From positions 15,278 to 48,793 of the forward strand of contig JBFLZB010000012.1 of the NCBI GenBank assembly GCA_040756475.1: a DNA stretch of 33,516 bases. Reading direction: 5' to 3'. Below, piece by piece: positions 3,919 through 20,234 of the stretch. A model generated the notes under the pieces. That model did not search any database. It was given only the letters and a program-made list of their open reading frames with translations, and was not told where the DNA came from. A program made the position numbers and the translations under genes. Positions within the stretch are counted from its first letter, which is position 1, and each line of letters starts with the position of its first letter. This stretch comes from Thermodesulfobacteriota bacterium. GTDB lineage: Bacteria > Desulfobacterota > Deferrisomatia > Deferrisomatales > JACRMM01.

Positions 3919-4833
3919 GTGAACCAGGTCCTCGACATCTTGCGCGATTGGCTGGCCAGCGGCCGCCTCGTCGCGGCGTTCCACGCGCTCGTCATCCTCG
4001 TATTGGGGCTTCTGGTCACCCGGCTCGTCAGCCGCAACGTGGGCCGCCTGGTGACCCGCTACTTCGGCCTCCAGCAGGGCGCGCTCGCCCGGCGCATCAG
4101 CTACTACGGCTTGGTCGTCCTGGTGATCATCTCGGTGCTGCGCGAGCTCGGGTTCGAGCTCACGGTGCTCCTGGGGGCGGCCGGCGTGCTCTCGGTGGCC
4201 CTGGGCTTCGCCTCCCAGACCTCGGCGTCGAACCTCATCAGCGGCCTCTTCCTCATGGCGGAGAAGCCCTTCGTGGTGGGGGACCTCATCACGGTGGGGG
4301 GCACCACGGGCGAGGTGCTCTCGGTGGACCTGCTCTCGGTGAAGCTTCGCACCTTCGACAACCTCTTCGTGCGGGTCCCCAACGAGACCATGGTGAAGGC
4401 CGAGATCACCAACCTCACCCGCTTTCCCATCCGCCGGCTCGACGTGAAGGTGGGGGTGGCCTACAAGGAGAACGTGGGCCGGGTAAAGGAGGTGCTCCTG
4501 GAGGTGGCCGAGAGGAACCCTCTCTGCCTCGAAGAGCCAAAGCCGCTCATCCTCTTCCTCGGGTTCGGCGACTCCTCGCTGGACTTCCAGTTCTCGGTGT
4601 GGGCGGTGCGCCAGAACTTCGTGGAGCTGCGAAACACCATCCACACGGGCATCAAGGAAGCCTTCGACACGGCCGGCATCGAGATCCCCTTCCCCCACCG
4701 CAGCCTCTACGCGGGAAGCGTCACCGACCCCTTCCCCGTGCGGGTGGTAGGAGGGGCGGTAGCCCCTCGCGACGACCGGGAAGAGCCGCCCCCGCCCCCC
4801 GCGGACCCCGACGGCAGCCCCCGATACCCGTAG
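3919..4833 (+). CDS. MscS family mechanosensitive ion channel
   Basis: 304 residues, close to the E. coli MscS length. Hydrophobic segments lie at about 19-38 and 60-78, and the pore-lining helix at about 83-112 has the Gly/Ala pattern GAAGVLSVALGFASQ. This is followed by the beta domain (KPFVVGDLITVGGTTGEV, 117-134) and the cytoplasmic vestibule, including VRVPNETM and the C-terminal motif GIEIPFPHRSLY. It should open under membrane tension to release solutes in osmotic downshock. The start is GTG 3919 with GGGAGGAAG just upstream. The C-terminal 40 residues are Pro/Asp-rich and variable. Confidence 0.93.
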   Translation: MNQVLDILRDWLASGRLVAAFHALVILVLGLLVTRLVSRNVGRLVTRYFGLQQGALARRISYYGLVVLVIISVLRELGFELTVLLGAAGVLSVALGFASQTSASNLISGLFLMAEKPFVVGDLITVGGTTGEVLSVDLLSVKLRTFDNLFVRVPNETMVKAEITNLTRFPIRRLDVKVGVAYKENVGRVKEVLLEVAERNPLCLEEPKPLILFLGFGDSSLDFQFSVWAVRQNFVELRNTIHTGIKEAFDTAGIEIPFPHRSLYAGSVTDPFPVRVVGGAVAPRDDREEPPPPPADPDGSPRYP

Positions 4834-4914
4834 AGGCCCACGCCCCCGACGGGATATACTCCCCGCACGAAACGGGGGACGACGAGCGCGCGGCTGCGCG
4901 CCGGAGGAGCATTC

Positions 4915-6090
4915 ATGTCTCGGTGGCTCGGACGAAGGCGGGCAGCCCTGCCCGTTCTCTTTCCCGCGGTACTGCTCGCCCTGCTCCTGGCCTTGGGCGC
5001 CGGGGGGTGCGGAAGCGACGACTGGAGCGAGGACGACGGATCTCCCCGCCCGCCGCCCCGGGGCTCCCTGACGGTGGAGCTCGCCGGGGAGCCGAGCGTG
5101 ACCTACGACCCGGCCAGGGGCCGGACCACCGTGGTGGTGCAGTTCATCGCCCGGGGGGCCGACGGGGTGCCCCTGGCGCCCTCGGATCTCGCCGTGGAGA
5201 TGCTGGTGGACGGCGAGCCGGTGGACAACGAGTCGGTGCTCCAGGAGAGCTCCCAGGAGCTCGCCGCGAGCGTCCTCTACGCCCTGGTCCTCGACGCCAG
5301 CGGCTCCATGCTCCGGCACACGCCCCCCGCCTTCGGCCCCATGAAGGAGGCGGCGCGCAAGAGCGTGCAGGATGGACGCGACCTCTGGCAGGACCGGCCC
5401 GGCACGTTTGCCTGGGACGTTTGCTGGTTCAACGACGTGCTCTTCCACCGCCAGGGCACCTGGAACCCTGCCGACCTCTCCGCCATCCCCGACCCGCTCC
5501 TCGAAGCCGCGACCAAGCTCTACGCCGCCGTGCAGTTCATGGCCCGGGAGATGGCCGACGCCCACGAGGCCGGCACGGCCGCGGGCGCCCGGGACCAGCA
5601 CATCCTGGTGATCCTCTCCGACGGGGCCGACAACCTGAGCGGGTTCGACAACAGTATGAGCGCCGTCGAACCCAGCGCTCGCGTCCCCCCCTCGACCGAG
5701 ACGACCTCGACCAACGCCGCCTACGAGCGCTTCGGGTGGCCGACCACGACTCTCGACGGCGCCCTCGACGCCATCCGGGCCCACCCGCGGCTCACGGTGC
5801 ACGTGCTCGCCCTGGGCTCCGAGTTTCGACCGGGGGATCTGGACAACCTGGGAAAGATTGCCCAGGCCGGGGGAGGGCAACTGCTCGTGAACCCGTCGAG
5901 CGACGCCTCCGCCCAGCTCTTCGACCGGGTCACCCGGGAGTTCAGCACCCTCCAGACCCGGGGAGCGGCCATTCCCCAGCAGTCCGGCGATTACGACTTC
6001 ACCCTGCGGGTGGAGGGTGTCACGTTCACGGGTCAAGGGACCCAGACCTTCCGGTACCGGGCGGGGCCCGGGGCGCAGCTGCTTCCGTAG
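4915..6090 (+). CDS. Von Willebrand factor A domain lipoprotein
   Basis: 391 residues. The N-terminus has several Arg, a Leu/Ala-rich stretch and a cysteine at C32 in GAGGC, a somewhat loose lipobox, so it is a probable lipoprotein. A vWA domain follows with an intact MIDAS start, DASGS (D127, S129, S131), and a later LSDGADN. The region before it (about 50-115) looks like a beta-rich accessory domain. The start is ATG 4915 with GGAGGAG upstream. It stands between mscS (82 bases upstream) and the ZIP gene and may be its own transcription unit. The role is presumably metal-dependent adhesion or protein contact at the envelope; the ligand is unknown. Confidence 0.85.
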   Translation: MSRWLGRRRAALPVLFPAVLLALLLALGAGGCGSDDWSEDDGSPRPPPRGSLTVELAGEPSVTYDPARGRTTVVVQFIARGADGVPLAPSDLAVEMLVDGEPVDNESVLQESSQELAASVLYALVLDASGSMLRHTPPAFGPMKEAARKSVQDGRDLWQDRPGTFAWDVCWFNDVLFHRQGTWNPADLSAIPDPLLEAATKLYAAVQFMAREMADAHEAGTAAGARDQHILVILSDGADNLSGFDNSMSAVEPSARVPPSTETTSTNAAYERFGWPTTTLDGALDAIRAHPRLTVHVLALGSEFRPGDLDNLGKIAQAGGGQLLVNPSSDASAQLFDRVTREFSTLQTRGAAIPQQSGDYDFTLRVEGVTFTGQGTQTFRYRAGPGAQLLP

Positions 6091-6110
6091 CATGTTTCGA
6101 AGCGAAAATG
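6091..6110 (+). terminator. Hairpin immediately after the vWA stop codon
   Basis: CATGTTTCG (6091-6099) pairs with CGAAAATG (6103-6110), 8 bp with one bulged G and a 3-base loop, starting right after the stop at 6090 and followed by TTGT. It is the weaker of two hairpins in this gap. Confidence 0.45.
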
Positions 6111-6151
6111 TTGTCGCGCGGTGAGGCGGGGGCTGGGGCCACGGGACGGAC

Positions 6152-6175
6152 GGGCGAACGTCCCTTCGTTCGCCC
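6152..6175. terminator. Perfect 9-bp stem-loop between vWA and ZIP genes
   Basis: GGGCGAACG (6152-6160), loop TCCCTT, CGTTCGCCC (6167-6175). There is no long U tract, so it is a possible intrinsic terminator or mRNA end stabiliser. It lies in a 146-base gap that holds no gene. Confidence 0.5.
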
Positions 6176-6236
6176 CATCCTCCCCCGGTCTGCGCCCGCC
6201 CCGCGCTTCACGTCTCACGCCCGGGCCTGAGCGTCC

Positions 6237-6965
6237 ATGGACCCCCTGCTCCCCGTCATCTCCATCTCGGTGCTGGGGCCCGTCCTGGGCTCCCTGATCG
6301 GGGTGCTGCGCGTCCCGAGTGAGCGCTTCCTCTACAACATGATGAGCTTCGCCGCCGGGGTGATGCTCGCCATCTCGTTTCTGGAGCTCATCCCCGAGAG
6401 CCTCACGTTCTGCTCCGTGCCCCTGTGCGCCCTGGGCATCGGGACCGGGGCGGTGGCCATGTTCGGCCTGGACAAGCTCCTGCCCCACCTCCACCCGGAG
6501 CTCTGTGGGCAGGAGCAGGGCCGAAACCTCAACAAGACCGCCGTCTACCTGCTCCTGGGGATCTTCCTCCACAACTTCCCCGAGGGCATGGCCATCGCGG
6601 TGGGCTCGGTGTCCGACTCCCGGCTCACCTACGTCATCGCCGTGGCCATCGGCATCCACAACGTGCCCGAGGGCATCTGCACCTCGGCGCCCTACTTCCA
6701 CGTCACCGGGAAGCGGTTCAAGGCCTTCCTGGTGAGCGCCTCCACCGCCCTGCCCATCGTGGCCGGCTACCTGCTGGGCCGCGCCCTCTACCAGGCGATC
6801 CCGCCGGAGTTCGTGGGGTTCCTGATCGCGGCCACCGCCGGGGTCATGGTCTACATCTCGGCCGACGAGCTCATCCCCGCCTCCTGCTTCAAGCTCAGCA
6901 GCCACAGCACCATCTTCTCCCTCATCGCCGGCGTGGTCTTCGTGGTGCTCCTGGGGAGCATCTGA
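6237..6965 (+). CDS. ZIP family divalent metal transporter
   Basis: 242 residues, almost entirely membrane-spanning with about eight helices, the usual ZIP topology. The two metal-binding helices are clear: HNFPEGMAIAVG in the middle (TM4) and HNVPEGICTSAP (TM5), each with the His-Asn/x-Pro-Glu-Gly core. A late Asp/Glu pair (SADELIP) lies in TM7. It would import zinc, iron or a related divalent metal across the inner membrane; the substrate cannot be told from sequence. The ATG at 6237 has no strong ribosome site. No metalloregulator lies next to it. Confidence 0.92.
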   Translation: MDPLLPVISISVLGPVLGSLIGVLRVPSERFLYNMMSFAAGVMLAISFLELIPESLTFCSVPLCALGIGTGAVAMFGLDKLLPHLHPELCGQEQGRNLNKTAVYLLLGIFLHNFPEGMAIAVGSVSDSRLTYVIAVAIGIHNVPEGICTSAPYFHVTGKRFKAFLVSASTALPIVAGYLLGRALYQAIPPEFVGFLIAATAGVMVYISADELIPASCFKLSSHSTIFSLIAGVVFVVLLGSI

Positions 6966-7155
6966 CCCGGATCCTCCTCCGATGTCGAGTGCCACTCGGG
7001 AAAGCGAAGCAGAGAAGTTTCGCTGCCGGCGTACCCGACCGTGCAGAACGTACACCCAAGGGCCGTTAAGGGGCATGGTCGCGCAATCTGGACAGGAGAA
7101 CCTCCTCGAGACCCACGGGAGCCAGACCGGCTCTCCGGCCGCCGCAAGGACCCGA
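6966..7155. other. 190-base gap with small hairpins, no gene called
   Basis: After the ZIP stop there is a 6-bp hairpin (CGAGTG 6986-6991 with CACTCG 6993-6998), then an AGCGAA/TTCGCT helix. I looked for a c-di-GMP or other riboswitch ahead of the sensor kinase and could not match one. An in-frame extension of the kinase through this gap is possible but reads like non-coding sequence. Confidence 0.4.
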
Positions 7156-9846
7156 GTGAACGCCATGGACGACCCGAAGTCGGCCACCGCCAACGCCGCT
7201 GTACCCACCGCCTTGCCCGGGGTGGCCTGGTCCGCTCTCGACTCCCTCCCGGCCCCCCTCTGGTGGGCCGATGCCGACGGCAGGCTCCTCTACGCGAACC
7301 GGGCTGCCTGGGAGGCGTGGGGGCGGTTCCCGCAGGAGGTCGCGGCCCTGAACGCCGCGGACCTCTACCCGGGCTTTCCCTCCCGGCGGCACCCCGAGAC
7401 GTGGGCGCGGCTCCAGGCCAGGGGAAGCCTGACCTTCGAGGCCGAGCGGCAGGGAGCGGGGGCAGAGGGCCGGAGGGCGCTGCTGGAGGTAACGGTCCGG
7501 CACTGCACCTGGGACGGGCTCGAGTACGTGAGCGCCCTGGCCCGGGACGTGACCGAGGAGCGGCGCACCGAGCGGGAGCTGCGGGAGCGGGAGGAACGGC
7601 TGCGCGTCATCTTCGACACCTCCCGGGCGGCCATCCTCCTGGTGGATGCGGGCGGCGCGATCACCTTCGCCAACCGGCGCGCCGCCCAGATGTTCGGGTG
7701 GCCACTGGAGCAGTTCATCGGATCGACCTACCCCTCCCACGTCCACCCTTCCGAGCGGGAGCCCGGCGACGCCCGCATGCGCCGCCTCATCGCCGGCGAG
7801 CTCGACCACGTCTCCATCGAGCGCCGTTACGTAAGGGCCGACGGGACCGACTTCTGGGGGTATCTCACCGGGCGCCGGCACGTGGACGCCGAGGGCAACC
7901 TCGTCTCCCTCGTGGGGGTCATCGCGGACATCACCGAGCGCAAGCAGGCGGAAGAGGCCCTGCGGGCGAGCCAGGAGCGCTACCGCGGCCTCATCGCCCT
8001 GGCCGCCGACGCCATCCTGCACGGCGATCCCAATGGAAGAATCATCGGCGCCAACCTGAGCGCCACGGCCCTCACCGGCTACGGGGCCGAAGAGCTCATG
8101 CAGCTCGAGAGCATCGCGGGCCTCTTCTCCGAGGAGGAGCGGCAGCGAGTGCCCCTGCGCTACGACCTCCTGCGGGAGGGGAAGACGGTGCGCAGCGAGC
8201 GCTTGCTCACCCGCAAGGACGGCTCCACGGTGCCCATCGAGATGAACACCCGGATGATGCCCGACGGTACCTTCCAGACCGTCATCCGGGACATGAGCGA
8301 ACGCAAACAGGCCGAAGACGTGCTGCGCGCCAGCGAGGAGAAGTTCGCCAAGGCCTTCAACCGCGCGCCGGTCCTCATCGCCATGAGCGCCCTGGAAGAC
8401 GGCCGCTACCTGGAGGTCAACGACACCTTCTGCGAGGTCTCGGGCTTTTCCCGGGAAGAGGCCGTGGGCCACACCTCGGTGGAGCTCGGATGGATCGCGC
8501 CCCCGGACCGGCAGCGGCTCGTGGCGCAGTTGCGGGAACGGGGCCGGGTGACGGACCTGGAGCTCGCCCTCACCGCCAAGGACGGGCGCCGCGTCCACTG
8601 CCTCTACAGCGGCGAAGTCATCACCGTGGACGGCGCGCCGCGCCTGCTCTCCATCGCCGTGGACGTGACCGAGCAGGCCCGCCTCAGGGAAGATCTCTTC
8701 AAGGCCCAGCGGCTCGAGTCCCTCGGGGTCCTTGCCGGAGGCCTCGCCCACGACTTCAACAACATCCTCACCGGAATCCTCGGCAATCTCTCCCTGGCTC
8801 GGGTCCTGGTGGGAGGGGAGCACTCCGCCTCGCGACGGCTCGGGGAGTGCGAGAAGGCCGCCGTGCGCGCCGCCGACCTCACCCGGCAGCTCCTCACCTT
8901 TGCCCGGGGCGGCGCGCCGGTCCGGAAGATCGTGGAGGCCGCCGCCCTGGTGGAGGAAGCGGTTTCCTTTGCACTGGGGGGCTCGAACGTGAGGGGCCTC
9001 ACGGAACTCCCCCCCGACCTGTGGCGCCTCCACGCCGACGAGGGCCAGCTCAGCCAGGTCCTCCACAATCTGCTCCTGAACGCGAAGCAGGCCATGCCCT
9101 CGGGCGGCACGGTGACCGTGCGGGGGAGCAACGTCTGCCTCGACACCCCGCGGGCGGGGCCCCTCCCGCCCGGCCGCTACGTGCGCATCGAGGTCCGGGA
9201 CACCGGCACCGGCATCCCGCCCGACGTCATCGGCCGGGTCTTCGACCCCTACTTCACCACCAAACCCGGCGGCACCGGCCTGGGTTTGAGCTCCGTCTAC
9301 TCCATCGTCCGGCGCCACGGGGGAGACGTCCGGGTCTCGTCGTCCCCCGGCGAAGAGACGGTTTTCGTGGTCCATCTCCCCGCCGCCGGAGAGGAATGCC
9401 ACAGGCCGGCCGCCGCGCCGCCCGAGCACCCCGCGCCCTGCCAAAGCAGAGGGCGGGTTCTGGTGATGGACGACGAGGAGATGATCCGGGAGCTGGCGAC
9501 GGGCATGCTCGAAGCCCTGGGCTACACGGCGCTGGCCTGCCCGGACGGCGCCGCCGCGGTCGACGCCTACCGGCAGGCCCGGGAGGCGGGCACCCCCTTC
9601 GATGCCGTCCTCCTCGACCTGACGGTGCCGGGGGGCATGGGGGGAAAGGAAACGGCGGCGCAACTCCTCGCGATCGACCCCCAGGCCCTCCTGATCGTCT
9701 CGAGCGGCTACTCCAACGACCCGGCGGTGGCGGAGCACCGCGCCGCAGGCTTCGCCGGGGCGGTGGTCAAACCCTACTCGCTCGACCGCCTCTCCCAGGA
9801 ACTCCTGCGTCTCCTTCGCGCCCACCCCGCCAGAAGCCCCGGGTAA
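7156..9846 (+). CDS. Multi-PAS hybrid sensor histidine kinase with C-terminal receiver
   Basis: 896 residues, with no membrane segment, so a cytoplasmic sensor. Four PAS domains in series (roughly residues 10-135, 145-265, 270-390, 395-510; the repeated ends DVTEER, DITERKQAE, DMSERKQAE and DVTEQARL mark them), then the H box GGLAHDFNN with H532, ATPase motifs NLLLNAKQA, DTGTGIPPD and GGTGLGLSS, and a receiver with phosphoacceptor D821 in LLDLTVPG and K in VVKPYS. The frame is open to 6982. I prefer GTG 7156 because AAGGA lies 5 bases upstream; ATG 7165 is the alternative. The built-in receiver suggests phosphate relay to an unlinked partner or feedback control. The PAS ligands are unknown. 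Confidence 0.9.
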   Translation: MNAMDDPKSATANAAVPTALPGVAWSALDSLPAPLWWADADGRLLYANRAAWEAWGRFPQEVAALNAADLYPGFPSRRHPETWARLQARGSLTFEAERQGAGAEGRRALLEVTVRHCTWDGLEYVSALARDVTEERRTERELREREERLRVIFDTSRAAILLVDAGGAITFANRRAAQMFGWPLEQFIGSTYPSHVHPSEREPGDARMRRLIAGELDHVSIERRYVRADGTDFWGYLTGRRHVDAEGNLVSLVGVIADITERKQAEEALRASQERYRGLIALAADAILHGDPNGRIIGANLSATALTGYGAEELMQLESIAGLFSEEERQRVPLRYDLLREGKTVRSERLLTRKDGSTVPIEMNTRMMPDGTFQTVIRDMSERKQAEDVLRASEEKFAKAFNRAPVLIAMSALEDGRYLEVNDTFCEVSGFSREEAVGHTSVELGWIAPPDRQRLVAQLRERGRVTDLELALTAKDGRRVHCLYSGEVITVDGAPRLLSIAVDVTEQARLREDLFKAQRLESLGVLAGGLAHDFNNILTGILGNLSLARVLVGGEHSASRRLGECEKAAVRAADLTRQLLTFARGGAPVRKIVEAAALVEEAVSFALGGSNVRGLTELPPDLWRLHADEGQLSQVLHNLLLNAKQAMPSGGTVTVRGSNVCLDTPRAGPLPPGRYVRIEVRDTGTGIPPDVIGRVFDPYFTTKPGGTGLGLSSVYSIVRRHGGDVRVSSSPGEETVFVVHLPAAGEECHRPAAAPPEHPAPCQSRGRVLVMDDEEMIRELATGMLEALGYTALACPDGAAAVDAYRQAREAGTPFDAVLLDLTVPGGMGGKETAAQLLAIDPQALLIVSSGYSNDPAVAEHRAAGFAGAVVKPYSLDRLSQELLRLLRAHPARSPG

Positions 9847-12770: not shown

Positions 12771-13763
12771 TCAGGGGAGTGGGAGCAGGCGCGCCGGAGC
12801 CTCGAAGACGACTTGGGGAACGCCCAGGGCGCGCTTGAGGGCGACGTCGCGGTCCCAGGGGTTGGGGATGCGGGCGAGCTCCCGAGCCTTTGCAAGCCCG
12901 AGCCTGGGGGCGAAGAACCAGGGGGTGACGAGGGAGGTGGCGATGAGCGGCATGTCGGTGCCGTAGAGGAGGCGGCCCCGGAAGGCAGGCTCCCCCAGGA
13001 GCCGAGCCAGGGCGCCGGGGTGGTTGACCTGGGTGAGGCTCGAGACGTCGGCCCACAGGTTGGGGTGCTCCCGGGCCAGCGCCGCGAGTCGGCGGAAGTT
13101 GGGGTGCCGGTCCGTGCTGCCCGCAGCGGCGCCGTGGGCGGCGACGACGGTCACGCCCAGCCTCAGGGGGAGCCGCAGGCGCTCGGGATCGCCCAGGTCG
13201 TCTCGGGAGCGGGTGAAGGAGCGCTCGGTTCCCGTATGGCTGAGGAGCGGCAGGCCCAGTTCCGCCAGGCGCCGGTAGAAGGCGGCGTGGCGGGGGTCGG
13301 CCGGGTCGATGCCCTGGATCGGGGGAAGCCACTTCACGAGCACCGCACCCCGGGCCGCCGCCTCGTCCAGGCGCTCCAGGGCGTCGCGCCGCAGGGGGTT
13401 CACGCTCGCCCCGAAGAAGAGGTTGGGGCAGCGCGCGGTCTCTTCTGCCACGAACCGGTCGGGCACGTAGACCTCTGTGGCGGTCTCGTCCAGCCTGCCC
13501 CACGCGTCCACGGCGCCGTCCAGCGCCAGCACCACCGCCCCCGAAACCTCTCGGGATGCGGCCAGGCGCTGGGCGAGGCGGGAGATCACCAGGGCGTCCC
13601 CCTCCCGCCGCAGTTCCTCCTCGGTCACCCCGTAGGCCCGCAGGTAGACGCGGAACCGGGGGCTCCGGCGCAGCCGGTCCGAGACGCGGCAGCCGCTCCC
13701 CCCGGCGCCGATGCCCGCGGCATGGCAGTGGAGGTCGATGACCGGAGCCGGGGCCGCGCTCAC
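12771..13763 (-). CDS. Amidohydrolase-family (PF04909-like) metal-dependent hydrolase
   Basis: 330 residues. It opens with VIDLHCH (H12, H14), the metal-binding HxH on strand 1 of the TIM barrel, then a central lysine-bearing VKWLPPIQG, a LSHTG histidine, a VVAAHG histidine and LYGTDMPL (the final-strand Asp). These are the expected metal ligands of the family, so an active hydrolase or decarboxylase is likely; the substrate is unknown. The start is GTG 13763, overlapping the stop of the small upstream gene by GTGA. The frame stays open to 14039, but the extension is shadow sequence. It ends 110 bases before the hydroxylase operon. Confidence 0.85.
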
Positions 13764-13963
13764 AGGGACCCCAGGAGGGCGTGGACGAGCCGCACCGCGT
13801 CGGGGGCGCCCAGGCGGAGCGCGTCGCCCACGGCCCGCGCGCACTGGGCCAGGAAGTGCCCCGCAGCCCCCAGGCCCACCGCCCCGGCCGCCGCCGCTGC
13901 GAGGCGCTCCGGCCACGCCGCTCCCCCGGGCCTCCTCGCGCCTTCTCTTGCCGTGCCGCTCAT
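13760..13963 (-). CDS. Small 67-residue protein coupled to rhombosortase and amidohydrolase genes
   Basis: I do not recognise a family. The protein begins with about 20 Arg/Gly-rich residues, followed by an Ala/Gly/Leu-rich stretch (about 21-50) that could be a short amphipathic or membrane-associated helix. What argues for a real gene is position: its ATG overlaps the rhombosortase stop (ATGA at 13960-13963) and its TGA overlaps the amidohydrolase GTG (GTGA at 13760-13763), so it exactly bridges the two without leaving a gap. A GGGAG lies about 8 bases before the start. In sequence this GC-rich, a chance open frame of this size is common, so caution is needed. Confidence 0.55.
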
Positions 13964-14691
13964 CGCTGGGCTCCCGCGGAGGTTCGCCCGCCCGTTCGAG
14001 TCTGCCTTGCGTGAGACTGCTCTTCCCCAGCACGATCACGGAACCGGCGAACCACCCGGAGCGCCCCGAAGGCCCCCAGGCCCCCGAGCACCCCTCCCAG
14101 GTGGCACGCCACCACCGGCACCCCCATGAGGCCGAAGTGGAGCGCCGAGAGGAAGGCCCGGCCGGCGGCGAGCTCCCAGGCGGACTTGGCGACCACGAGC
14201 CCCAGGCAGAGCGCCCCGGTGCGCCGGTCCCCTGTGTCCCGGGAGGCGAGCCCCTCGGCCCCCGAGACGGCCAGGAGGCCGTGGGCCGTGCCCGAGAGCC
14301 CGCACAGGCCCACGGCGTAGAGGTCGGGTGAGAGCGCGAGCGGCAGGAGCATGCTCCCCGCCCACGCGCCGAGCACGTAGACGAGCCGCCCCGCCCGGCC
14401 CGGCTCCCGCAGGCCGGCGTAGAGGAGGAGGAACCCCGCTCCGTCGAGGAGAAGGTGGTACCAGCTCACGTGGGCGAAGGGGTGGGTGAGCAGCCGCCAC
14501 CACTGCCCCTCGGCGACCCGGACGGGCAGGAAGACCAGGGCCTCCGCCACGGCCCCCCAGAACACCGGCAGGCTTGCCGCCAGCGCCAGGAGGCCGAAGG
14601 CCCAGAGCTCGGCGGCGGGACCGCCGGGGCGCGCCGGGGCGCGAGGGAGTTGCCGGGCAGGGGCGGCGGGGGAGGCAGCTGAGGTCGTCAT
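13960..14691 (-). CDS. Rhombosortase-like rhomboid-family intramembrane serine protease
   Basis: 243 residues with about six membrane helices. The catalytic serine is S134 in GLSGTAHG (the SGxxHG form seen in rhombosortases) and the partner histidine is H197 in ACHLGG. WWRLLTHPFAHVSWYHLLLD (63-83) is the conserved loop-1/TM2 region. Rhombosortases cut C-terminal sorting tails (GlyGly-CTERM) from exported proteins at the inner membrane. The start ATG 14691 has AGGAGG about 9 bases upstream. The gene directly upstream on the same strand, 79 bases away, encodes an exported protein with a short C-terminal hydrophobic segment plus Arg/Lys cluster, a likely substrate. A plain rhomboid protease is the alternative. 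Confidence 0.82.
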   Translation of the reverse strand: MTTSAASPAAPARQLPRAPARPGGPAAELWAFGLLALAASLPVFWGAVAEALVFLPVRVAEGQWWRLLTHPFAHVSWYHLLLDGAGFLLLYAGLREPGRAGRLVYVLGAWAGSMLLPLALSPDLYAVGLCGLSGTAHGLLAVSGAEGLASRDTGDRRTGALCLGLVVAKSAWELAAGRAFLSALHFGLMGVPVVACHLGGVLGGLGAFGALRVVRRFRDRAGEEQSHARQTRTGGRTSAGAQR

Positions 14692-14770
14692 CTTCTCGAA
14701 CCTCCTGCCCCTCCGGCGCGGGCCGGAGGGACGGTTTCATGCTGGCGATCCTTCGCGGCCAAGGCCGCTT

Positions 14771-16897
14771 CTACCCGCGCTCCTTCTTCCGGCGGCGGGC
14801 GAGCCACGCGGCGAGCCCGACGAAGAGGGGCCCGACCGGACCCGAGCCGATGCCGATGTCGAAGCCGGAGCGGCGCCGGGCCTCCGGAGAGGGGGCGGGG
14901 GCGGCGGTGGGGGGGGCGGCGGCGACGGCGGGGGCCGGCTGGGAAGGCGCGGCCTGCTTTGCGGCCTCGGGGCCCAGGCCCGCCACGGCCCGTTCCCGGA
15001 TGGCGTCGAGACCCGCCCGGAGCCGCTCCTGGGCCTTGCGGTCGCGCTCCACCAGGAGGGCGTTCTTCCGCTCGATCTTCCAGCGCCGGTACTCGGCGTC
15101 GTCTTCCAGCACGATGAAGCTCGTGTACTCGGTGGCGATGGAGTGGGCCTCCCCCAGGCGCACCACCTCGTCCACTACCGCCTGACGCGACCCGCCGCGG
15201 TCGGCCTCGCGAAGCAGGCGGTCGATGCGGTGCCAGGCCCACATGCGCTCCAGCTCGGGGTTGTCCCGCTCTTCCCCCGGGAGCTCCAGGGTCGCGGAGC
15301 GCTCCAGCCGGACGCCGCGGATCTCGCCGGTGAGCGTCACCCGGGGGGAGCCGCCCTTGGGGTAGCGGCCGTACACCCGCACCGGAGCCCCGTGGTAGAG
15401 GCTGGGGAGCACCGGGGGCTCGAGATCGGTCACCTCGACCCCCTCGAACGCGAGCGCCAGCCCCGTGGCCACGGGGTGCTGGAGCTTGCGGCGGAAGGCC
15501 CGGGCCTGGCGGGCGAAGTCGTCCCCGGGGGAGAGAAAGGCCGCCAGCCCCCCGGAGTCCCGGGCGAGCTGTTCGAGGAGGGGGCGGTTCACGTCGTTTC
15601 CGACGCCGATGCAGAAGACCCGGGTGTTGCCCGGCCGGGTGCGGATGAGCTCGGCCAGGGCGGTGCGCTCGCGCTGCTCGGTGAGCCCGTCGCTCAGGAC
15701 CACCACGTTGAGGGTCCGGTCGGCGTCCCGGTACTTGTAGGCCGTGGTGAGGGCAGGGTTGAGCACCGTGCCGCCCCGGGCCTGCTGGCCGGCCAGGAAC
15801 GCCTCGGCCCGGGCGAGGCTCGCGGGCCCGGCGGCCTCGAGCCGGTTGAAGAGGGTCGCCGGCTGCACGTTGAAGGCCAGGAGCTCGAAGCGGTCCTTCT
15901 CTCCCAGCTCCCGGAGGAACGCCCCCACCGAGTCCTTGGAGAGCAGGAGCTTGCCCCCGTCCCCCATGCTCCCGGAGACGTCCAGCAGGAAGACATAGTC
16001 CATGCCCTCGTCCAGGGCCGCGGCGTCCTCCCCGGCCGTGAGGGTGAGGCAGAAGGTGCCGTCGGCCGGCCCCTCCCGGTGGGCGAGGAGGTCGATCCCC
16101 GTGCGGGGGCGCGCCAGCCGGTAGGCCACCACCACGTCCCGGTCCAGGTTCGTGCCGGCCACCCGCTCCAGGCTCGCCTGCCAGAAGTGCTCCGAGTGCC
16201 GCGCCGCCACCACCTCGGCCCCGTGGCTGGGGCTCTCCAGAGCGACGATGGGCACCGGGGACTTGGCGTCCAGGGTCAAGGCGAAGCGCCCCGAGGTGCG
16301 GGCGTCGGCCCCGGACCGGGTCGCGGTGGCAAGGGGGTAGACGTAGGTGGCCCAGTCGTGGTCCGCGTCGAGCTCCTGGTAGTAGGTGATCTGGATGCGC
16401 TGTTCGGCCTGGGGACCGATGGGGAAGACCCGCATCTCGAAGGTCCGGTAGTCCACCTGCTCCAGCAGGCCGGGGTCGCGGCGGGTCTGCTTGTAGCTCT
16501 CGTAGATCTGGCGGGCGCGCTCCTTCTCGAGCACCTCGCCGACCATCTCCACGCCGTTGATCCACATGCTGAAGTTCGAGACCGAGGCCCCCCGGGGCAC
16601 GGGGAAGGTGTACAGGGCCTCCACCTGCCGGCGCTCGGTGTTGCGGAAGATCTGGTTTACCGTGGTCACCGCGACCCCGTTGTTCACCGTGACCGAGACC
16701 TCGTGGTCCACGATCTCCAGCACGCCGCCGAAGCCGCCGTCGGCGACCAGGAGGCCCGCGGCCCGGGCGGGGCTAGTGGCCGCGGCGCCCATCTGCAGGG
16801 CCAGGACCGTGAGGGCCCCGGCCCACCAGCAAAACGGGGACCGGTGCCTTCGGGGTGGGGTGGACGGTGTGCGTCGGTCTCTCTCGGGGCTTTGCAT
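14771..16897 (-). CDS. Exported VIT + vWA domain protein with C-terminal sorting-tail-like end
   Basis: 708 residues. A long basic N-region and hydrophobic stretch end near ARA-AG (cleavage about residue 46-48). A VIT domain follows (about 50-180, including RQIYESYKQTRRDPGLLEQV) and a vWA domain with intact MIDAS DVSGS (D306, S308, S310). After a charged helical segment and a Pro/Ala-rich linker (about 645-675), the last 25 residues are GSGPVGPLFVGLAAWL then ARRRKKERG: a short hydrophobic helix with a basic end, as in CTERM and LPXTG tails but without LPXTG or a clear GlyGly. The layout resembles the marine proteobacterial sortase targets. ATG 16897 has AAGGAGG 5 bases upstream and a sigma-54 promoter at 16941-16954. 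Confidence 0.9.
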   Translation of the reverse strand: MQSPERDRRTPSTPPRRHRSPFCWWAGALTVLALQMGAAATSPARAAGLLVADGGFGGVLEIVDHEVSVTVNNGVAVTTVNQIFRNTERRQVEALYTFPVPRGASVSNFSMWINGVEMVGEVLEKERARQIYESYKQTRRDPGLLEQVDYRTFEMRVFPIGPQAEQRIQITYYQELDADHDWATYVYPLATATRSGADARTSGRFALTLDAKSPVPIVALESPSHGAEVVAARHSEHFWQASLERVAGTNLDRDVVVAYRLARPRTGIDLLAHREGPADGTFCLTLTAGEDAAALDEGMDYVFLLDVSGSMGDGGKLLLSKDSVGAFLRELGEKDRFELLAFNVQPATLFNRLEAAGPASLARAEAFLAGQQARGGTVLNPALTTAYKYRDADRTLNVVVLSDGLTEQRERTALAELIRTRPGNTRVFCIGVGNDVNRPLLEQLARDSGGLAAFLSPGDDFARQARAFRRKLQHPVATGLALAFEGVEVTDLEPPVLPSLYHGAPVRVYGRYPKGGSPRVTLTGEIRGVRLERSATLELPGEERDNPELERMWAWHRIDRLLREADRGGSRQAVVDEVVRLGEAHSIATEYTSFIVLEDDAEYRRWKIERKNALLVERDRKAQERLRAGLDAIRERAVAGLGPEAAKQAAPSQPAPAVAAAPPTAAPAPSPEARRRSGFDIGIGSGPVGPLFVGLAAWLARRRKKERG

Positions 16898-16940
16898 GGC
16901 ACCCTCCTTTGCTGCGGGTTGGGGTTGCCTCCTCCCCATC

Positions 16941-16954
16941 GCAAGGGGCGTGCC
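16941..16954 (-). promoter_or_regulatory. Sigma-54 (-24/-12) promoter for the VIT-vWA gene
   Basis: On the minus strand this reads GGCACGCCCCTTGC. It matches the conserved core of the sigma-54 consensus (GGCACG, four bases, TTGC) with the required GG-N10-GC spacing. The start site would fall near 16929-16930, leaving a leader of about 32 bases that carries the AAGGAGG ribosome site. The divergent neighbour is a sigma-54 activator. Confidence 0.8.
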
Positions 16955-16976
16955 CCCCGTCGGCGAGGACCGCAAC

Positions 16977-17003
16977 GGCGCGCCGGCGCTGCACTTTCGC
17001 GCC
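16977..17003. promoter_or_regulatory. Possible activator-binding inverted repeat
   Basis: GGCGCG (16977-16982) and CGCGCC (16998-17003) flank 15 bases, centred about 60 bases upstream of the predicted sigma-54 start and about 45 before the activator promoter. It could be the upstream activating site. In sequence this GC-rich, 6-base arms are weak evidence. Confidence 0.3.
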
Positions 17004-17032
17004 GCACGGGGAGAGCGCCTCGGCCTCCTCCG

Positions 17033-17062
17033 TTGACATCTGGTGCAGGGCGCCCGTACATT
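17033..17062 (+). promoter_or_regulatory. Sigma-70-type promoter of the sigma-54 activator; predicted leaderless mRNA
   Basis: TTGACA (17033-17038, perfect -35), 18 bases, TACATT (17057-17062, -10). The ATG at 17069 starts 7 bases after the -10 box, about where transcription should begin, and there is no ribosome site, so the mRNA is probably leaderless. Confidence 0.7.
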
Positions 17063-17068
17063 GCGTGC

Positions 17069-18559
17069 ATGGCACCCCTGACGGCTCCCGACCGCGACTT
17101 CTTCCGCCTGGTCTCCCGGGCGGCCTTCGTGAACCCCTTCAGCCGGGAGCGCGAAGAGCTCGACCGGGCCATCGCCGGGTGGGTGGGGGAGGGGCCGCCG
17201 GAGGCCGTGCTGGCCCGGGCCGTCCGGACGGTAGGGGAGCGGGTGGCGGCGCTGGAGGAGAAGGGGCCCCTGCGCCCGGGCGCCTTCGGGGCCGAGGACG
17301 GTCCCCTGGTGGAGGCGGCGGTCCTCTTCGACGCCTTCCACCGACACGTGGCGGACCTGGACGGCCTCATCCGCGACCAACTCGCCGGGGGCGAGACCCC
17401 CTGCGCCGTGCCCTTTGCCCGGGACGCCCTGGGGCTCCTCACCCGCCGGGGCATTGCGGCCCCCGAAGCCCGCCGCACCTTCGCCTTCTTCTACCAGCTC
17501 CGGCGCGCCTTCTACTTCATCGACCGGAGCCTGGTGGGCCGGTGCGCCTCCATGGGGGAGCTGCGCCGGCATCTCTGGAACGACGTGTTCACCGCCGACA
17601 CCGGGTGGTACGGCCGGCGCCTCTGGGACCGGATGGAGGACTTCTCCACGCTGCTCCTGGGGGAGACCGGCACGGGCAAGGGGAGCGCCGCGGCCGCCAT
17701 CGGGCGCTCCGGCTTCATCCCCTTCGACGAGCGCATGGGGTGCTTTTCCGAAAGCTTCGCCCGGAACTTCATCGCCTTGAACCTTTCCCAGTTCCCCGAG
17801 TCCCTCATCGAGTCGGAGCTCTTCGGCCACCGCAAGGGGGCCTTCACGGGGGCGGTGGACCACCACCAGGGGGTCTTCGCCCGCTGCACCCCCCACGGGG
17901 CCATCTTCCTCGACGAGGTGGGCGACGTCTCGGTGCCGGTGCAGATCAAGCTCCTCCAGGTCCTCCAGGAGCGCACCTTCTCCCCGGTCGGCAGCCACGA
18001 GCGCCTGCGCTTCCGGGGTCGGGTGATCGCCGCCACCAACCGCCCGCTCGACGGCCTGCGCCGGGACGGGCGATTCCGGGACGACCTCTACTACCGCCTG
18101 TGCTCCGACGTGGTGGTGGTGCCGCCGCTTCGCCGGCGGCTGGCCGAGGACCCCCGGGAGCTCGGCCTCCTGGTGGCCCACCTCGCCGCCCGGGCCCTGG
18201 GGGGGGAGGAGCCCGAGATCGCCGCCGCGGTGGAAGAAGCCCTGGCCCGGGATCTGCTCCCCGCGTACCCCTGGCCCGGTAACGTGCGGGAGCTCGAGCA
18301 GGCCGTGCGCCGGGTGCTCCTCACCGGCTCCTACCGGGGGGAGGCGGGGGCCGCGACCGATGACCTGCGCGCCCGGCTCCTGGAGGGGATCGACGGGGGG
18401 ACCCTGGACGCCCGGGAGCTCCTCCAGGGCTACTGCGCGCTCCTCCACGGCCGCTGGGGCACCTACGAGGAGGTGGCCCGCCGCACGGGCCTCGACCGAA
18501 GAACGGTGAAGAAGCACGTGCTCGCGGCCGCCGGGGGCCGGGGGGAGGACGGGGAGTGA
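17069..18559 (+). CDS. Sigma-54-dependent transcriptional activator with a novel N-terminal domain
   Basis: 496 residues. The N-terminal ~185 residues are helical and match neither receiver, GAF nor PAS domains that I know. The AAA+ domain has Walker A GETGTGKG (198-205), the sigma-54 contact loop GAFTGA (257-262), Walker B GAIFLDE (277-283) and the arginine-finger region RFRDDLYYRL (335-344). A helix-turn-helix ends the protein (about 464-485, YEEVARRTGLDRRTVKKH). The frame is open far upstream (to 14486), but that is antisense to the VIT-vWA gene. I choose ATG 17069 because a promoter lies directly in front of it. It presumably activates the divergent sigma-54 promoter at 16941. It overlaps the next gene by 4 bases. 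Confidence 0.92.
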   Translation: MAPLTAPDRDFFRLVSRAAFVNPFSREREELDRAIAGWVGEGPPEAVLARAVRTVGERVAALEEKGPLRPGAFGAEDGPLVEAAVLFDAFHRHVADLDGLIRDQLAGGETPCAVPFARDALGLLTRRGIAAPEARRTFAFFYQLRRAFYFIDRSLVGRCASMGELRRHLWNDVFTADTGWYGRRLWDRMEDFSTLLLGETGTGKGSAAAAIGRSGFIPFDERMGCFSESFARNFIALNLSQFPESLIESELFGHRKGAFTGAVDHHQGVFARCTPHGAIFLDEVGDVSVPVQIKLLQVLQERTFSPVGSHERLRFRGRVIAATNRPLDGLRRDGRFRDDLYYRLCSDVVVVPPLRRRLAEDPRELGLLVAHLAARALGGEEPEIAAAVEEALARDLLPAYPWPGNVRELEQAVRRVLLTGSYRGEAGAATDDLRARLLEGIDGGTLDARELLQGYCALLHGRWGTYEEVARRTGLDRRTVKKHVLAAAGGRGEDGE

Positions 18560-19161: not shown

Positions 19162-19482
19162 ATGGCAACCGACCGAGACGACCCCGTGCCCTTCGACGCA
19201 GGACAATTCGTGGCCGAAAGACTCGAAGATCCCGCGTTTCGCAGCGCATACGAGGCAACCGAAGAGGAATTCGCTGCCCTCGACGTACTCCTCGAGGCGC
19301 GCCACAAGGCGGGGCTCTCCCAAGAGCAGGTCGCCGTGCGGATGGGCATGAAGCAGTCCTCCCTGGCGCGGATCGAATCGTCGCTGACGAGTCGCAAGCA
19401 TGCTCCGTCGCTCTCGACGCTGCGGCGATACGCCGAAGCTCTCGGATGCGAGCTCGAAATTCGACTCGTCTCCAAGCCGTAG
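19162..19482 (+). CDS. XRE-family helix-turn-helix regulator (HigA-like, solitary)
   Basis: 106 residues. An N-terminal helical region (EDPAFRSAYEATEEEFAALD, about 22-41) is followed by a classic HTH (about 51-75: LSQEQVAVRMGMKQSSLARIES). This architecture is that of HigA-type antitoxins, which usually sit directly downstream of a small RelE/HigB toxin gene. No such toxin precedes it here; the upstream neighbour, 3 bases away, is the glycosylase, and the ParE pair downstream has its own antitoxin. So it is either an orphan antitoxin or a plain regulator. Start ATG 19162 has GGAGGGGGTGAAAG upstream. The lower G+C here marks the start of an accessory patch. Confidence 0.85.
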   Translation: MATDRDDPVPFDAGQFVAERLEDPAFRSAYEATEEEFAALDVLLEARHKAGLSQEQVAVRMGMKQSSLARIESSLTSRKHAPSLSTLRRYAEALGCELEIRLVSKP

Positions 19483-19640
19483 CCGGGTGTGTCGGCGAAA
19501 CCGCCGCACCGCAAGCCATGAACCGGCCCCAATCCCATCCGTGTTGAGGAGCGCACGCCCGCGCCCCACCGCCGATCCCATCGCCTTGGTGCGTCGCGCC
19601 GCACCCTACACGGCTGGCCGCAACGCTCCATGCTTGCCGG

Positions 19641-19669
19641 TGGAAACCGCCGGTGTTCACTGCTATGTT
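19641..19669 (+). promoter_or_regulatory. Candidate promoter of the toxin-antitoxin pair
   Basis: TGGAAA (19641-19646), 17 bases, TATGTT (19664-19669), 38 bases before the antitoxin start, each box 4 of 6 to consensus. The rest of the 225-base gap 19483-19707 shows nothing I can name. Confidence 0.45.
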
Positions 19670-19707
19670 GAAGGCCGCATGCGCTTGCACGAGAGGAGAA
19701 CATCCCC

Positions 19708-19935
19708 ATGCCGCTGGCACCCCAGGAACTCGAGGCCGCTGCCCTGACGCTTCCCCGGTGCGATCGTGCCCGCCTTGCACAGCGACTGCTCGAAAGCCTC
19801 GATGAAGACAGCGAGGTGGAGCAGGCATGGGCAGCTGAGGTCGAGCGCCGGCTCGATGAGCACGACCGCGGCCAGGTCCAGGCGATTCCCGGCGAAGAGG
19901 TCTTCGCCAAGGCTCGTGCGCGGCTGCGGGGGTGA
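19708..19935 (+). CDS. Antitoxin of the addiction-module CHP02574/PF09720 type
   Basis: 75 residues. The pattern LEAAALTLPRCDRARLAQRLLESLD and the ending RLDEHDRGQVQAIPGEEVFAKARARL are characteristic of this antitoxin family, which pairs with ParE/RelE-fold toxins. The C-terminal part should wrap the toxin, while the N-terminal part binds DNA for autoregulation. ATG 19708 has GAGAGGAGAA upstream. It overlaps the toxin start by GTGA (19932-19935), so translation is coupled. Confidence 0.88.
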   Translation: MPLAPQELEAAALTLPRCDRARLAQRLLESLDEDSEVEQAWAAEVERRLDEHDRGQVQAIPGEEVFAKARARLRG

Positions 19936-20234
19936 GAACCTTCTTCTTCCTGCACGAGGCAAGCGAGGAACTGTCGGAGGCAGCGGCTTGGTACGAGGAG
20001 CAGTCGTCCGGCCTGGGCTCCGAATTCCTCGCTGAGGCGCACCAAGCCGTCGGGTTGGCGGCCGCCTCCCCAAGCATCGGGTCGCCGTACCGAAAGGGGA
20101 CTCGGCGCCTCCTGCTGAAGACCTTCCCGTTCAGCGTGGTGTACCGAGAAGACCATCGCTTCATCCTCATCGTCGCCATCGCCCACCATAAGCGGCGGCC
20201 GGGGTACTGGCGGGGAAGGGTTCTCCGACCTTAG
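19932..20234 (+). CDS. ParE/RelE-superfamily toxin
   Basis: 100 residues. EASEELSEAAAWYEEQSSGLGSEFL is the typical helical hairpin of ParE-like toxins, followed by RRLLLKTFPFSVVYRE and ILIVAIAHHKRRPGYWRGR, the beta-sheet core and C-terminal strand with basic residues. The family either poisons DNA gyrase (ParE) or cleaves ribosome-bound mRNA (RelE); sequence alone does not decide, though the partner antitoxin family and the HHKRRPGYW end are commonly found with ParE-type members. GTG 19932 lies within the antitoxin stop codon. Confidence 0.88.
   Translation: MRTFFFLHEASEELSEAAAWYEEQSSGLGSEFLAEAHQAVGLAAASPSIGSPYRKGTRRLLLKTFPFSVVYREDHRFILIVAIAHHKRRPGYWRGRVLRP

Follow-up and report, generated by a model that had tools for sequence, protein, structure and literature searches.

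The stretch of DNA analyzed here (the window: 33,516 nucleotides of contig JBFLZB010000012.1, assembly GCA_040756475.1, from a Thermodesulfobacteriota bacterium) encodes an exported VIT-vWA protein, followed on the same strand by a rhomboid intramembrane serine protease and divergent from a sigma-54 activator (Table 1). The three genes lie where an earlier sequence-only reading had placed them, with the features it described: a rhomboid of the rhombosortase type, a tripartite tail on the VIT-vWA protein and a divergent activator. That reading had proposed a one-to-one pair of protease and target under sigma-54 control, with a regulator of its own and a rhomboid in the place of a sortase, and knew of no description of the combination. 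The one-to-one pair and its sigma-54 control are supported by a single match to the tail in the genome and by the wide recurrence of the neighborhood; the other propositions fared less well, as detailed below.

Table 1. Features of the locus (window coordinates).
Feature	Position	Strand	Characteristics
Amidohydrolase (Amidohydro_2)	12771..13748	-	PF04909, 69.4 bits; next gene downstream of the rhombosortase; range not tied to a start codon
Rhombosortase (rhomboid intramembrane serine protease)	13960..14691	-	243 aa; TIGR03902; GLSGTAHG, S133/H197
Exported VIT-vWA protein, putative sole rhombosortase target	14771..16897	-	708 aa; Pfam VIT, 111.6 bits; VWA_3, 74.2 bits
C-terminal sorting tail	14774..14848	-	GSGPVGPL, short hydrophobic helix, RRRKK
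Candidate sigma-54 -24/-12 promoter	16941..16955	-	GGGCACGCCCCTTGC; p 0.01 relative to Markov sequences of this region
Candidate activator-binding palindrome	17057..17069	-	TGCACGCAATGTA; consensus TACA-N5-TGTA; overlaps the activator start codon
Sigma-54 activator	17069..18559	+	496 aa; AAA+ domain (Sigma54_activat PF00158, 148.5 bits) with GAFTGA; C-terminal HTH; all-helical N-terminal domain

The protease, its putative target and the C-terminal tail

The TIGR03902 (rhombosortase) model matches the window rhomboid with 94.7 bits (cut-off 84) and the GlpG model with only 12.6 bits; in the tree, too, the enzyme does not group with the GlpG-type rhomboids. The sequence-only reading had the motif GLSGTAHG and the partner H197 right, while its S134 becomes S133 when counted from the ATG at 14691. 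The SGxxH feature is present as SGTAH, with a second His four residues past the catalytic Ser, which is typical of rhombosortases as described in Haft and Varghese 2011 (PMC3237569). Of 395 genomes sampled from the phylum, only 6 have an enzyme above the TIGR03902 cut-off. The window enzyme falls, in the rhombosortase tree, within a clade of 18 rows composed of GLSGxAH-type enzymes (support 100/99) and separate from the GASG-type rhomboids; a VIT-vWA gene adjoins all 16 members of this clade for which upstream DNA is available, the other two being located at contig ends. The interval between the stop codon of the VIT-vWA gene and the start of the rhombosortase gene (14692-14770) can form a strong hairpin, CCCTCCGGC...GCCGGAGGG, without a T run, which could govern how much target is made relative to protease; its fold z-score of -1.64 is not clearly above that expected from composition.

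The VIT-vWA protein starts with a hydrophobic signal that ends, as read off the sequence, with ARA-A, and terminates with GSGPVGPLFVGLAAWLARRRKKERG. Its extreme C-terminus consists of a motif (GSGPVG), a helix (PLFVGLAAWLA) and a basic cluster (RRRKK), and the motif is almost invariant among homologues whose bodies are only 33-66% identical. The Gly-Gly signature (often SGGS) is absent from this tail, which has GSGPVG instead, and the GlyGly-CTERM model TIGR03501 reported no match in the window genome at E-values up to 10. The latter model has little power here, being blank also on two rhombotarget lipoproteins that clearly have GGGS tails, and thus we used our own tail model (A4) to seek further substrates. 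This model, which was built from 13 homologues and could miss divergent substrates, identified the VIT-vWA protein as the sole match in the 5.0-Mb draft genome (E-value 6e-17; next E-value 0.03), so that no second protein with the same tail was found.

A dedicated enzyme with a VIT-vWA target is also found in the marine proteobacterial sortase cassette (TIGR03784/TIGR03788), which, unlike the present locus, pairs a cysteine sortase with LPXTG. That motif is missing from the window tail, and the adjoining enzyme is a rhomboid and not a sortase. The VIT-vWA protein scores 240.7 bits against the marine sortase target model TIGR03788, below its cut-off of 551.65, and the view that a sortase has been replaced by a rhomboid is not supported.

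Recurrence of the locus and the two tail classes

Scanning of named genomes with the rhombosortase alignment, combined with neighborhood searches, revealed that the arrangement is not unique to the window genome. The order of divergent activator, VIT-vWA protein and rhombosortase recurs in Malonomonas rubra, Geothermobacter hydrogeniphilus and Desulfogranum japonicum, as well as in metagenome-derived genomes labelled Desulfobacteraceae, Pontiellaceae and others. The activator is present in the loci of the GLSGxAH clade that have enough upstream sequence, and in most of the sister cassettes it is 48-61% identical to that of the window (36-42% in two). Among the less regular cases, an LplT-Aas gene sits between in one activator-carrying locus of the clade (L060), in another locus (L072) only the N-terminal part of the activator is seen ahead of an assembly gap, and in a third (L064) the contig stops just upstream of the pair and a more distant activator homologue is found ~6.5 kb downstream.

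As a held-out check, the tail model alone was run over 277 genomes of the class to which one of the carriers belongs, and it matched 20 of them, once per genome. The 18 loci fetched from these matches included two already seen (L206 is L059 and L215 is L063), leaving 16 new ones. The tail lies at the end of a VIT-vWA protein in 18/18 loci (in two of them, L202 and L203, the VIT-vWA frame is broken ahead of the tail), the rhombosortase is the next gene in 17/18 (in the remaining one the contig ends), and a divergent activator is present in all 14 loci with upstream sequence.

Two observations concern individual genomes. A metagenome-assembled genome labelled Akkermansia muciniphila (L057) contains at positions 3926-8567 a full cassette with an activator 60% identical to that of the window, which is unexpected for this species; the label may reflect a mistake in binning or naming. 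In L046/L069 from Geothermobacter the VIT-vWA gene appears to be missing a segment around the vWA metal site, and the reading frame of the activator is interrupted, while the close relative L047 differs in this respect; this seems to be due to decay or an assembly error.

The tails of the rhombosortase-linked VIT-vWA proteins fall into two classes, GSGPVGPL and GGGAIDP-like, the intermediate tail of L106 (GGGPIGP) being placed manually on the basis of its resemblance to L085. On the enzyme tree the class switches once (support 100/98, all bootstrap trees), while on the tree of VIT-vWA bodies with tails removed it switches at least two times, both tails occurring in both body clades. The tail type hence tracks the enzyme clade and not the VIT-vWA body, which makes the tail the likely signal recognized by the rhombosortase. 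The GGGAIDP-like pairs (L077, L078, L079, L085, L106) come from Planctomycetes, Lentisphaeria and Gammaproteobacteria, and no activator of the window family was found adjoining them. The Rhodopirellula VIT-vWA protein from these pairs reaches 517 bits with the model of marine sortase targets.

The sigma-54 activator, its predicted sites and its other neighbors

Residues 1-190 of the activator have no Pfam or NCBIfam match confined to this region. They are predicted to form an all-helical domain (pLDDT 89.5), for which no convincing structural relatives were found (Foldseek best E-value 0.29; the best VIA Z of 6.3 over 67 residues is within the usual range of helical models). The -12 C of the candidate promoter lies 44 bp ahead of the VIT-vWA start codon, and an equivalent site is present in most homologous loci. 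In the window the distance between palindrome and promoter is 115 bp; of 40 activator-family loci left after the removal of near-duplicates, 28 have a good palindrome and a promoter 95-130 bp apart, compared to 0-7 of 40 for controls with permuted or reversed motifs, where the permutation that gave 7 resembles the real motif. The distances cluster at 100-103, 111-115 and 120-125 bp, i.e. about one helical turn apart (Rayleigh p ~4e-7 at 10.5 bp, uncorrected for the relatedness of the loci). In the window genome the composite pattern has two matches, one at this locus and the other chance-like, and thus the predicted regulon in this genome is the pair itself. From the position of the palindrome, the activator may also limit its own expression. 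Downstream, the start of a methylpurine-DNA glycosylase gene overlaps the activator stop codon; beyond it (19162-20234) lie a small HTH protein and then a ParE-like toxin (PF05016), possibly a toxin-antitoxin pair.

The activator is not confined to loci with the pair. Its N-terminal domain family was found in 24 of the 395 sampled genomes, most of which lack the pair, so its dedication to the rhombosortase, as proposed in the sequence-only reading, had to be rejected. In genomes without the pair, activators 50-63% identical to that of the window have one of three kinds of divergent neighbors: an amidohydrolase gene with an LplT-Aas fusion after it, FabD, FabG, FabH, FabZ and FabF-like genes (identified by eye; L161, L162, L163 and L165, with the same palindrome-promoter spacing), or other genes. 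In other cassettes with the pair the amidohydrolase occupies the same place as in the window, and it, LplT-Aas or both are often encoded after the rhombosortase. The L047 copy of the fusion passes its family model (NF006386, 1388 bits; cut-off 1221), and LplT-Aas re-acylates lysophospholipids, e.g. lyso-phosphatidylethanolamine (PMC11416262). The fusion is absent from the window genome, hence lipid recycling by LplT-Aas is not obligatory here, and we rejected it as an obligatory part of the system. In the activator tree the VIT-linked members are dispersed and do not form one clade; taken together with the relatives at lipid-type operons, this suggests that the pair appears to have been plugged into an existing envelope-lipid regulon.

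One could go further and regard an envelope-lipid stress response, comprising the activator, the amidohydrolase, LplT-Aas and fatty-acid-type genes, as the functional unit, with the pair as its optional surface or repair component. Both the loci without the pair, in which the palindrome-promoter spacing is kept, and the scatter of the VIT-linked activators argue for such a unit, while the restriction of the predicted regulon of the window genome to the pair argues against it. We consider it a serious possibility, if somewhat short of probable, and it is compatible with the enzymology proposed below.

The proposed sorting module, known systems and alternatives

Building on the gene families and their order, the single tail, its co-segregation with the enzyme and the conserved spacing of the motifs, all read directly from the DNA, we consider it probable that the locus encodes a sorting module with a dedicated rhombosortase, under sigma-54 control of the enhancer type. 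After export via Sec, the VIT-vWA protein would be retained in the inner membrane by the helix that follows GSGPVG and by the basic anchor at its C-terminus. Cleavage by the adjoining rhombosortase would take place close to the Gly-rich motif, presumably within GSGPVG, on the outward-facing side of the membrane. By analogy with VesB from Vibrio cholerae, the new C-terminal Gly would probably be transferred to an ethanolamine phospholipid, and the protein could then move to the cell surface, possibly via a type II secretion system, of which the secretin is present in the window genome. VesB is cleaved by the rhombosortase, and the Gly thereby exposed at its C-terminus bears a glycerophosphoethanolamine-containing moiety; the protein requires both the rhombosortase and the type II system for its surface location and is partly released from the cell (PMC6219818). 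In response to an inducing signal, the divergent activator would bind the palindrome at its own start codon and, by looping, drive the target-protease operon from the -24/-12 promoter ~115 bp away.

The combination of protease and target is not new as such: rhombosortase and dedicated one-to-one pairs were described in 2011, and VIT-vWA proteins with GlyGly-CTERM, PEP-CTERM or LPXTG tails appear in the same work, where swaps of the rhombosortase tail with PEP-CTERM and LPXTG tails are noted as well (Haft and Varghese, PMC3237569, Table 3, Fig. 3C). Those pairs share with the window a single target next to a TIGR03902 enzyme and the presence of VIT-vWA proteins among the tailed families, but their motif is Gly-Gly/SGGS instead of GSGPVGPL, and the part of that paper on which this comparison draws neither describes a regulator nor defines a VIT-linked GLSGxAH clade. 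The rhombotarget lipoprotein/rhombosortase pair (TIGR04179), seen in L045 and L048, is likewise dedicated and one-to-one, but there the target is a small lipoprotein whose tail carries GGGS, the flanks examined yielded no activator homologue, and the TIGR04179 model does not match the VIT-vWA protein. RssP of V. cholerae is a rhomboid-type sorting enzyme acting on the same kind of C-terminal motif-helix-basic tail, in this case of VesB, but it serves several unlinked targets and the substrate is a serine protease (PMC6219818). LplT-Aas, found as a fusion in many of the sister cassettes, has been described as a general lysophospholipid repair system (PMC11416262). A literature search for rhombosortase with sigma-54 returned no paper, and none linking LplT-Aas with rhombosortase came up among the papers found. 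What is new, and in no paper found, is the defined GLSGxAH/GSGPVGPL class, the near-constant sigma-54 activator with its binding-site grammar, and a connection with lysophospholipid remodelling.

Experimental tests of rhombosortase have been carried out mainly in V. cholerae, which has several substrates. The present locus offers a minimal module of one enzyme and one substrate, marked by its distinctive tail and its predicted on-switch, which could be reconstructed in a laboratory strain. The recurring LplT-Aas link lends independent genomic support to the idea that rhombosortases attach their substrates to ethanolamine phospholipid, and the activator family adds a type of sigma-54 regulator with an N-terminal sensor domain outside the assigned families and a predictable binding site.

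The glycerophosphoethanolamine moiety of VesB and the link to Aas together suggest a testable lipid-anchoring cycle, of which we speculate only tentatively. A sigma-54 activator sensing envelope-lipid damage would induce the VIT-vWA surface protein together with its rhombosortase, the protein would be transferred to ethanolamine phospholipid, and the linked LplT-Aas, where present, would re-acylate lysophospholipid; GLSGxAH enzymes with GSGPVGPL tails would constitute a separate specificity class.

We find it unlikely that the rhombosortase merely hydrolyses the tail, so that the VIT-vWA protein is shed on cue to the periplasm or the medium, given the C-terminal moiety of VesB and the re-acylation enzyme in several cassettes; release would nonetheless agree with the hydrolytic nature of rhomboid proteases, with the partial release of VesB and with the lack of the LplT-Aas partner in the window genome. 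Very improbable is a general rhomboid located by chance beside an unrelated VIT-vWA gene, for which one could cite two further rhomboid-like matches in the window genome, both below the TIGR03902 cut-off: the window enzyme exceeds that cut-off, its clade is apart from the GASG-type rhomboids, and the recurrence of the adjacency, in particular among the loci collected by the tail model alone, strongly excludes chance.
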